Shown here one piece after another: positions 4,067-7,265 of a DNA stretch of 64,000 nt. Position 1 is the stretch's first letter; each line of letters begins with the position of its first letter. Under the pieces are notes generated by a model, which worked only from the letters and a program-made list of their open reading frames with translations, did no database searches and was not told the origin of the DNA. The stretch is from Sulfuricurvum sp. (lineage in GTDB: Bacteria; Campylobacterota; Campylobacteria; Campylobacterales; Sulfurimonadaceae). The position numbers were made by a program, and so were the translations under genes. The stretch is from contig JAQTTG010000001.1 in NCBI GenBank assembly GCA_028710885.1, forward strand, positions 62,001 through 126,000, written 5' to 3'.

Positions 4067-5329
4067 ATGCTCCGTTTTGCTCCAAGCCCTACGGGAGATA
4101 TGCATATTGGCAATCTCCGTGTGGCACTTTTTAATTATATATCCTCGATTCAACGTAATGAGCCGCTTTTAATTCGTATTGAGGACACAGATACAGAGCG
4201 TAATATCCCAGGCAAAGAAAAAGAAATTTTTGAAATTCTTGCACTCTTTGGAATTACTCATCAAGAAGAACAACTGCAAAGTAATAACTTGCGTTTCCAT
4301 CGGGCAATGGCTCTTCAATTGCTCCACGATAAAAAAGCTTTTAACTGCTTTTGTACTTCGGATACTTTGAATGCAAAGTGCGAAGATGGAAAAATTGAAC
4401 ACCGATATGACGGAGCTTGCGAAAATCTTCATCCTGAAGAGGTGATTGACAACCCTCTTCCCTTCACTATTCGTCTTAAGAAACCATCCCACCCAATCAC
4501 GGTGAATGATTTAATTAAAGGCGAATCGACATTTGCTCCGAATGACATCGACAGCTTTATCGTGATGCGCTCCAATAAATATCCGACCTATAACTTTGCG
4601 TGTGCGGTAGATGATATGCTCTCCGATGTCTCTCTTATTATCCGTAGTGAAAATCATCTGAACGATACCCCCAAACAGATCGCAATCCATGAAGCACTCG
4701 GTTATACTAAAAAAATCGAATACGCTCATGTACCGATCACTTTAGGTGATGAGGATTTCAGCGTCAAATGGCTTCTTGAAGAGGGGTATTTGCCCGAAGC
4801 AATCAGCAACTATCTGATTTTATTGGGAAACAAAACACCGGTTGAAATCTTCAGCGTTAAAGAGGCGATCAAATGGTTTGACCTGAAAGCCATTTCCAAA
4901 GCTACTACTTGTTTTGACATCGATAAACTCAAATATATCAATCGTGAGCATCTTAAAGGACTCGATCCGAAAGAGCTCTCACGCTATGTCGGATTTGCCG
5001 ATGAAGAGATCGGAAACTTGGCTAAACTTTTTTTAGAAGAGGCAAGTACCCTCAAAGAACTAAGAGCAAAAGTAGGTGCGGTATTTGCTCCTAAAGAGGT
5101 TTCGAAAGAGTACAAAGAGAGATTTGAAATCCTAAGGGCGCTAACACAAAAAGCTCCCCATTTTGACGATTATGATGCCTATAAAGGGTATTTGAGCGAG
5201 AAAAGCGCTCTTGAGGGAGAGAATCTACTCAAACCACTTCGCCTGCTTCTCAGCGGTGCGGAACACGGACCTGAGATGAATGATCTCTATACACATATTA
5301 AAAATTATCTTAAAGAGGTTGTCAAATGA
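4067..5329 (+). CDS. gltX: Glutamyl-tRNA synthetase 2-like protein (atypical, KMSKS region missing)
   Basis: MLRFAPSPTGDMHIGNLR HIGH motif and GluRS2-like C-terminus; see finding on missing KMSKS. Confidence 0.85.
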   Translation: MLRFAPSPTGDMHIGNLRVALFNYISSIQRNEPLLIRIEDTDTERNIPGKEKEIFEILALFGITHQEEQLQSNNLRFHRAMALQLLHDKKAFNCFCTSDTLNAKCEDGKIEHRYDGACENLHPEEVIDNPLPFTIRLKKPSHPITVNDLIKGESTFAPNDIDSFIVMRSNKYPTYNFACAVDDMLSDVSLIIRSENHLNDTPKQIAIHEALGYTKKIEYAHVPITLGDEDFSVKWLLEEGYLPEAISNYLILLGNKTPVEIFSVKEAIKWFDLKAISKATTCFDIDKLKYINREHLKGLDPKELSRYVGFADEEIGNLAKLFLEEASTLKELRAKVGAVFAPKEVSKEYKERFEILRALTQKAPHFDDYDAYKGYLSEKSALEGENLLKPLRLLLSGAEHGPEMNDLYTHIKNYLKEVVK

Positions 5330-5613
5330 TGGGTGGAATTGCAATGGGATTGGGTGGAATTGTTCACTCGCTTATTACTGTATATATTTGGGTACTTATA
5401 ATCGGAGCCCTGCTCTCTTGGGTACGACCAGATCCATATAATCCAATTGTGCAGATTATATATCGATTAACAGAACCTGCATATTCACTCATTCGTAAAA
5501 TAATGCCAACTGTTTTTAATGGACTTGATCTTGCTCCATTGATTTTGATCATATTACTTCAAGTTTTAGATGTAATTTTGGTAAATGTTATTAATGCGGT
5601 GGTCCTAGCTTGA
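5326..5613 (+). CDS. YggT family integral membrane protein
   Basis: VYIWVLIIGALLSWVRPDPYNPIVQIIYRLTEPAYSLIRKIMP. Confidence 0.85.
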   Translation: MMGGIAMGLGGIVHSLITVYIWVLIIGALLSWVRPDPYNPIVQIIYRLTEPAYSLIRKIMPTVFNGLDLAPLILIILLQVLDVILVNVINAVVLA

Positions 5614-7265
5614 TGCGTTCTCTTTTACTTTCAACACTGTTAATATCATCTATCCATGCGATTACAATTGATGATATCAACGATAAACCTTCATCACGTC
5701 AAAAGAATTTTTTAATCTGGCAGTTTTTGCATCAAGATATCAATGCAACAGAAGCATCAAATGCTTTTTATCAAGTTGAAAATGTCAATGAACGTTTTTT
5801 ATTTGACTATGCAGCCAAAACAGATGAACCTGAAATTAAATACACAGTTGCATGCATGCAACAACCCGCATGCAATCTTCCAACTATTGAACAAGATGAT
5901 TGCTTAATGCTGGCACTTACTCCAGCTAAAGCAACAGCCCTATTACCCCAAGAACGTGAAAAGATTGCGACACAGCTTAATAATAAATTTGGTACTACTG
6001 AATGGTTACGAGCCATGAATCAAGAGTCTTTATTTACATCAACTAATAATCTATACAATGAAAGTATTGTATTTCGTCTTGCTGGTGCAGAGTATCGACA
6101 TATCCATTTCAATCATCCACTCACATCGGAAGTTATTGATGCATTAGCACAAAGCAATGATTTTGCAAAAATAGTTTTTCTTACGGTAACTGATCCTGCC
6201 ATGGATGAATTACAGCAAGCATTTTCTACTATTTCTAGTGGAAACTTTGATCCACAAACTCATTTTTTTCTTGCTATGAATGCTATCAAATTTAAAAGAA
6301 TTGATATCGCATTGGATCATTTAAAAGAATCGAAAAGACTCTATTATTCCCCTATTGACAAAGATAAAACACTTTTTTGGGAATATCAAATAACAAAAAA
6401 TGAAAAATTCCTAAATGAACTATCCAAAAGTCTCGATATTAATATGTACGTTCTTTATGCAAGAGAACTATTGAATCTTCCAACTGAAAATTATTTTACT
6501 ACACTTCCAACGACGCATAATAATCATAGTATTAACGGAATAGATCCATTTCAATGGCGTGAATTTGCTGAAGAAATAAAATCTTCTACTTCTGATTCTA
6601 TTGCATCCCTCATAGATCGTTGTGATAGTGAAGATTCCATAGGTGTACAGGGTTATATTTTGGAACGTACTTATGAGCCGTACATTCATAATTTCACAAT
6701 GCCTTATGATCAATATATGATGACTCTAAGCAATGATGAAAAAGCACTGGTATATGCATTAATGCGCCAAGAAACACGATTTATTCCCGGTCTTATATCT
6801 CGTTCATTTGCACTAGGTTTGATGCAAATCATGCCATTTAATATTGATTCTATCAGTAAAGTACTTCCTGAAAAACCTACTACTTATTTTGATATGTTGC
6901 AACCTGATCTTAGTATCAAATATTCTGTATACCATTTAAAACATTTAATTAGTCATCTATATAACCCGTTGCTGGTTGCTTATGGATACAATGGCGGGTT
7001 AGGTTCAACAAAGCGACTTTTAACAGAGGGAAAAAGATTTTTACCAGGAGAATATGAACCATACTTAAGTATGGAAATCATTGGCAATGATGAAAATCGA
7101 GAGTATGGCAAGAGAGTACTTGCCAACTATGTTATCTATAAAAAAATATTGGGTGAGCCTGTTTCTATAATGACTCTTTTTGATAATTTAATTCAACCGA
7201 GCCAGTCTGATTATTTTCGAGCCGAAGCGCTAATGAAGGTACAGATGTTGAGTCAAAACGAATAA
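5610..7265 (+). CDS. slt: Soluble lytic murein transglycosylase
   Basis: ALMRQETRFIPGLISRSFALGLMQIMPFN and AYGYNGGLGSTKR (SLT domain); signal-like N-terminus. Confidence 0.82.
   Translation: MMRSLLLSTLLISSIHAITIDDINDKPSSRQKNFLIWQFLHQDINATEASNAFYQVENVNERFLFDYAAKTDEPEIKYTVACMQQPACNLPTIEQDDCLMLALTPAKATALLPQEREKIATQLNNKFGTTEWLRAMNQESLFTSTNNLYNESIVFRLAGAEYRHIHFNHPLTSEVIDALAQSNDFAKIVFLTVTDPAMDELQQAFSTISSGNFDPQTHFFLAMNAIKFKRIDIALDHLKESKRLYYSPIDKDKTLFWEYQITKNEKFLNELSKSLDINMYVLYARELLNLPTENYFTTLPTTHNNHSINGIDPFQWREFAEEIKSSTSDSIASLIDRCDSEDSIGVQGYILERTYEPYIHNFTMPYDQYMMTLSNDEKALVYALMRQETRFIPGLISRSFALGLMQIMPFNIDSISKVLPEKPTTYFDMLQPDLSIKYSVYHLKHLISHLYNPLLVAYGYNGGLGSTKRLLTEGKRFLPGEYEPYLSMEIIGNDENREYGKRVLANYVIYKKILGEPVSIMTLFDNLIQPSQSDYFRAEALMKVQMLSQNE

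Follow-up and report, generated by a model that had tools for sequence, protein, structure and literature searches.

The window, by which we mean the whole 64,000-nucleotide stretch of Sulfuricurvum DNA analysed here, contains downstream of trkH-trkA and upstream of yggT and slt an open reading frame for GltX2, the second glutamyl-tRNA synthetase of this genome (Table 1). Its nearest intact relatives, from genomes G021 and G024, are 432 aa long and 85% identical to it. Relative to these two proteins the window gene lacks, in frame, the nine codons for NEGKKMSKR and with them the KMSKS loop, as an earlier note on this DNA had proposed, and no KMSKS motif was found at any other place in the whole protein. 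The degeneration of RGEDH to RSENH, also read by that note, was confirmed in the translation of the frame, in which RGEDHLSN of the intact relatives appears as RSENHLND. The HIGH motif is intact as claimed, but its form here is the HIGN of the GltX2 family; R45 and other glutamate-pocket residues are likewise unchanged. Rfam and tRNA scans in the vicinity of gltX2 returned no matches, and the gltX2-yggT-slt order is retained in most extreme GltX2 forms examined by synteny.

Table 1. Features of the gltX2 region, in positions of the window.
Feature	Position	Strand	Description and basis
Putative gltX2-derived pseudo-synthetase gene	4067..5329	+	Open frame, 420 aa; TIGR00464 364.7 bits, PF00749 199 bits, AlphaFold mean pLDDT 93.2
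HIGN motif (GltX2 family's form of HIGH)	4103..4114	+	Intact in the window protein
3-residue deletion junction	4384..4385	+	Alignment with intact relatives
RSENH replacing conserved RGEDH	4643..4657	+	G197S, D199N (G021 numbering), followed by S202N, N203D
9-codon deletion junction, NEGKKMSKR (KMSKS loop) gone	4747..4748	+	Codon alignment with relatives
K395E and K397E (G021 numbering)	5213..5221	+	Anticodon-binding domain; charge reversal common to other KMSKS-less lineages
yggT	5326..5613	+	PF02325, synteny; shares 4 nt (ATGA) with the end of gltX2; operon partner kept across the order
slt-like lytic transglycosylase gene	5610..7265	+	PF01464, synteny; operon partner kept across the order

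Over its full length the window protein matches the bacterial GluRS profile TIGR00464 with a score above the curated cut-off of 289.95 bits. GluQRS was considered as an alternative identity and rejected, the score against that profile (161.4 bits) falling below the cut-off of 276.7 and the C-terminal anticodon-binding domain being present. AlphaFold confidently predicts a GluRS fold, with a TM-score of up to 0.88 against solved GluRS structures, and an extreme 382-aa form of GltX2 (mean pLDDT 90.4) also matches such structures. Of the features of a functional class I GluRS, the protein thus has the HIGH-type motif, as HIGN, and has neither the KMSKS-type ATP-activation loop nor the RGEDH segment. 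It retains the synthetase fold expected of a pseudo-synthetase, and catalytic residues have been lost from a gene that remains under purifying selection, as judged by dN/dS in groups of relatives rather than on the window branch alone; a pseudogene is contradicted by the open frame of the window and by the dN/dS values of close KMSKS-less pairs given below. The NCBIfam equivalog TIGR00464 still names the window protein glutamate--tRNA ligase, and the KMSKS-less state is so hidden in public annotation.

The loss of the loop in the window gene and its recurrence across relatives are real. An error of assembly or base calling at the junction, which the earlier note had kept as an alternative, is rejected because many genomes with assemblies of their own, some of them near-complete, have lost the same loop or carry mutations in it; the deletion is moreover in frame and creates no stops, the protein is confidently predicted to adopt a GluRS fold, and other conserved positions have changed along with the loop, so that we regard such an error as scarcely credible. 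The same note had suggested loss between short repeats of the GATGAG type. This slippage idea finds no support, since no clean direct repeat of GATGAG flanks the junction in the codon alignment of the relatives.

The genome to which the window belongs (G000, contig C13) comprises 2.64 Mb, is estimated to be 100% complete and has Sulfuricurvum as its nearest named relatives. It encodes three class Ic E/Q synthetases, namely an intact GltX1 (with KLSKR), the window GltX2, and a GlnRS of 753 aa that has a GatB/YqeY tail as well as an MSKRK motif. GatB was found as well, and the worry that a lineage without GlnRS would need GluRS2 for tRNA-Gln therefore does not apply to this genome, in which GlnRS, GltX1 and GatB all occur. 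All asnS matches were below cut-off, leaving no AsnRS detected in G000. When AsnRS is missing, Asn-tRNA is made by an established pathway that depends on GatCAB, which would consequently still be required here for Asn-tRNA; GatB is retained in 79 of the 80 GlnRS-positive genomes tested. Provided that its GlnRS works, G000 could dispense with GltX2 for the supply of Gln-tRNA.

Among 399 Campylobacterales genomes, GltX2 was matched in 327 (E<=1e-75) and GlnRS in 138 (E<=1e-60), one of the latter matches (G304) being a frame with 15 stops. We aligned 190 GltX2 proteins, one from each of 190 genomes, the GlnRS-negative sequences having been taken from the better-scoring GltX2 matches listed so as to be spread over genera and to include visibly short ones. 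In this set, which leaves aside about 170 GlnRS-negative genomes including most of families f11 and f14, KMSK[RS] was kept in 8 of 101 GlnRS-positive genomes vs 85 of 89 GlnRS-negative genomes (Fisher 6.6e-39). HxGN was kept in 19/101 and 86/87, respectively, and RGEDH in 12/101 and 85/89. Both GlnRS-positive members with lost motifs and GlnRS-negative members with intact motifs occur in 11 genera. As deletion of the loop would seldom be reversed, this suggests at least 11 losses of the KMSKS loop if gltX2 has descended vertically. A GltX2 tree computed without the motif columns, a rough one built from gltX2 itself and with long branches, gave 27 changes; its supported branches yielded 17 independent pairs, with about 13.7 in agreement with the association and 0.1 against it (median p 1e-4). 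A single origin of the deletion in the Sulfuricurvum genomes G000, G007, G012 and G014 was not rejected (AU p 0.35), and we therefore claim repeated loss across genera and not for each deletion inside Sulfuricurvum.

The glnS gene lies at most 6 kb from gltX2 in 40 of the 92 genomes compared, either directly upstream within the operon, as in family f20, or in a mostly head-to-head arrangement (Sulfurimonas, f6.g57). In Sulfuricurvum it usually adjoins a second clpX, with a nifS-like gene on the opposite side in some genomes. This second ClpX paralogue beside the usual glnS site is seen at G000:C29 and at locus L281, and at L281 nucleotidyltransferase/HepT-like genes of the toxin-antitoxin type stand next to glnS or clpX2.

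Some genomes depart from the rule in either direction. GlnRS was not found in four KMSKS-less genomes (G009, G010, G022 and G262), all of them fragmented drafts with completeness estimated at 79-97%. The usual glnS neighbour clpX2 is also missing from G009 and G010, and a clpX2 fragment in G022 is flanked by other genes with no glnS alongside; that missing contigs account for these cases is only suggestive. Conversely, GlnRS and KMSKS occur together in eight genomes (G001, G011, G023, G026, G170, G261, G315 and G365). Of these, G001 is assembled in 5 contigs, contamination is estimated at 4-5% in G023 and G026, and glnS is incomplete in G011. The GltX2 of G011, with KMSKS kept, already carries K395S and K397D, and for this reason genomes of this kind may represent early stages.

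Several further arrangements were recorded along the way. G026 has two equal-scoring glnS copies (C1 and C9), a possible duplication or assembly redundancy. In G304 (family f9, genus g38) the GlnRS-like frame at C171:7967-9205 contains 4 TAG and 11 TAA stops and GltX2 is intact with KMSKR, possibly the reverse outcome in which glnS has decayed. The single-contig genome G079, in which no GlnRS was found, has gltX2 in two frames at C1:1540351-1541246 (L284), with KMSK in the second part, a candidate for a real break or a sequencing error. Only one E/Q-type synthetase, and neither GltX2 nor GlnRS, was found in G100, G113, G248 and G405 (f14.g43), G057 and G075 (f17) and G061 (f21), which implies a single non-discriminating GluRS in those genomes. 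Family f15 genomes encode proteins of about 285 aa, that at L282 scoring above the GluQRS cut-off and that at L283, of similar size, resembling GltX1.

In intact GltX2, 139 columns show conservation of 95% or higher, and in the KMSKS-less proteins 71 of these still reach at least 80%. Most of the columns kept are core hydrophobics, glycines and the cysteines C94, C96 and C121; the zinc cysteines persist. The abandoned columns are H13, G15, N16, T41, R45, R116, R171, G197, D199, S202, N203 and the KMSKR loop, to which the C-terminal domain adds A293, K395, G396, K397 and F400. All 18 changed conserved columns of the window protein fall in the 197-203 segment, in the 225-243 loop region, at A293 or at 395-400; of the nine outside the KMSKS loop, eight coincide with columns that other genera have abandoned (22 of 127 columns) when its own genus is left out (p 1.9e-6). 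Conserved lysines and arginines are preferentially lost in the KMSKS-less proteins, with net charge moving from -7 to -16 and K397 becoming E in 57/97, and the only new motif that they have in common is the change of N16 to D (43/97). Judged by known GluRS structure, this pattern suggests that ATP activation has been lost and contact with tRNA weakened. Such convergent abandonment of conserved catalytic and anticodon-domain positions in GlnRS-bearing lineages lends support to the early suspicion of a non-canonical or inactive enzyme.

Close pairs in which both members are KMSKS-less have Nei-Gojobori dN/dS values of 0.12-0.33, among them G009/G010 (0.123), G210/G232 (0.128), G060/G295 (0.138), G180/G244 (0.141), G121/G134 (0.266) and G103/G116 (0.317). 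Over all pairs with dS of 0.1-1.05 the median was 0.31 for lost-lost vs 0.23 for intact-intact pairs, which indicates some relaxation. Retention of KMSKS-less gltX2 under selection is thus well supported for the group of relatives, and we infer the same for the window gene. Some GlnRS-positive genomes, such as G046, G049, G068, G082, G168 and G221, have lost gltX2 outright, and the retained function must be dispensable there.

The reading that we prefer, with a probability of roughly 0.7, is that GlnRS took over the charging of tRNA-Gln and that GltX2 turned into a pseudo-synthetase which no longer catalyses but is maintained by selection for some task besides charging. Ancestrally, tRNA-Gln would have been glutamylated by GltX2 and the product amidated by GatCAB; with a Deinococcus-type GlnRS carrying the GatB/YqeY tail, Gln-tRNA would be made directly. 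Freed from charging, GltX2 would lose the KMSKS loop, the RGEDH segment and basic anticodon-domain residues, in many cases HIGN as well, and would stop making Glu-tRNA-Gln. Takeover by GlnRS is the likely cause of the loop loss, and both activity and tRNA binding have presumably gone from the KMSKS-less protein. Purifying selection keeps the fold, the zinc cysteines and the place in the operon, and it is from the retention of these three features under selection that we conclude that GltX2 performs some non-charging function, one that would depend neither on catalysis by KMSKS nor on recognising tRNA in the normal way. As a guess, this role might be non-catalytic binding or scaffolding, possibly tied to YggT and Slt. 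A broader proposal, which we hold to be evenly balanced between right and wrong, is that Campylobacterales GltX2 has long had a second, charging-independent function that GlnRS takeover repeatedly exposes, leaving convergent pseudo-synthetases that carry it alone.

Other explanations could account for part of these observations. Following the takeover, gltX2 might simply be in slow neutral decay, on its way out and held open only by translational coupling of its stop to yggT, as the ATGA overlap in the window, the faster evolutionary rate in lost lineages, forms shortened to about 350 aa and the complete losses in some GlnRS-positive genomes would allow. Coupling does not preserve amino acids, however, and the low dN/dS of close lost pairs, the 71 columns still conserved, the confident AlphaFold models and about 95 diverse frames that are still open make this course unlikely. 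It is similarly doubtful that the KMSKS-less protein is still a working synthetase, perhaps for another ligand or tRNA (compare GluQRS and queuosine-tRNA-Asp): although the window protein has the GluRS fold and unaltered HIGN, R45 and other glutamate-pocket residues, and four KMSKS-less genomes are without a detected GlnRS, other lineages have abandoned HIGN, R45, R116, R171 and the KMSKS lysines, conserved basic residues are preferentially lost, and no common new motif has arisen apart from N16 to D. Glu-tRNA-Gln made by GltX2 could also compete with GlnRS, in which case inactivation would be favoured and the leftover protein would have no role. The repeated losses, concentrated at catalytic and tRNA-binding sites, would fit such harm, yet the retained GatCAB would repair Glu-tRNA-Gln, long purifying selection and point inactivation in place of gene deletion would go unexplained, and the coexistence of intact GltX2 with GlnRS in G001 is mild counter-evidence; we consider the idea quite improbable.

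The presence of both GlnRS and GluRS2 in six epsilonproteobacteria, including Sulfuricurvum kujiense, was described in 2014, together with the origin of this GlnRS from Deinococcus-Thermus and the suggestion that it may be non-functional, GluRS2 always being present (PMC3927822). That paper does not mention KMSKS, and in the open literature we found no report of a KMSKS-less GluRS2. The motif losses bear on its open suggestion that GlnRS is the non-functional partner and favour the reverse. They also serve as a warning that automatic annotation still calls KMSKS-less proteins glutamate--tRNA ligase.

Synthetase-derived proteins that do not charge tRNA are known, mostly as single ancient families. 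Here the same transition has apparently taken place at least 11 times in one order, each time tied to GlnRS, and so amounts to a natural experiment run in replicate, one that can tell the parts of a synthetase needed for charging from those with another use. The window protein is orthologous to GluRS2 (GltX2), the tRNA-Gln-specific glutamyl-tRNA synthetase of Helicobacter pylori and other epsilonproteobacteria (PMC3927822), being 52-85% identical to the intact GltX2 of the order and having HIGN and the order's gltX2-yggT-slt neighbourhood; it differs in its missing KMSKS loop, degenerate RGEDH, reversed anticodon-domain lysines and the GlnRS in the same genome. LeuRS-I of Sulfolobaceae is likewise a class I paralogue with a tRNA-facing domain that has diverged to become acidic, and it cannot aminoacylate yet is important for growth, but it still forms leucyl-adenylate and binds tRNA-Leu (PMC9437257), whereas GltX2 loses KMSKS itself, repeatedly and in association with GlnRS. 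HisZ, the HisRS-derived regulatory subunit of HisG, is a synthetase fold without adenylation that is kept for a protein partner (PMC9437257); it is of class II, with a single ancient origin and a known partner, in contrast to the class I, many-origin KMSKS-less GltX2. GluQRS/YadB, finally, is a GluRS-derived paralogue; the catalytic half of the window protein matches solved structures of YadB, but GluQRS has no anticodon domain, which the window protein keeps.
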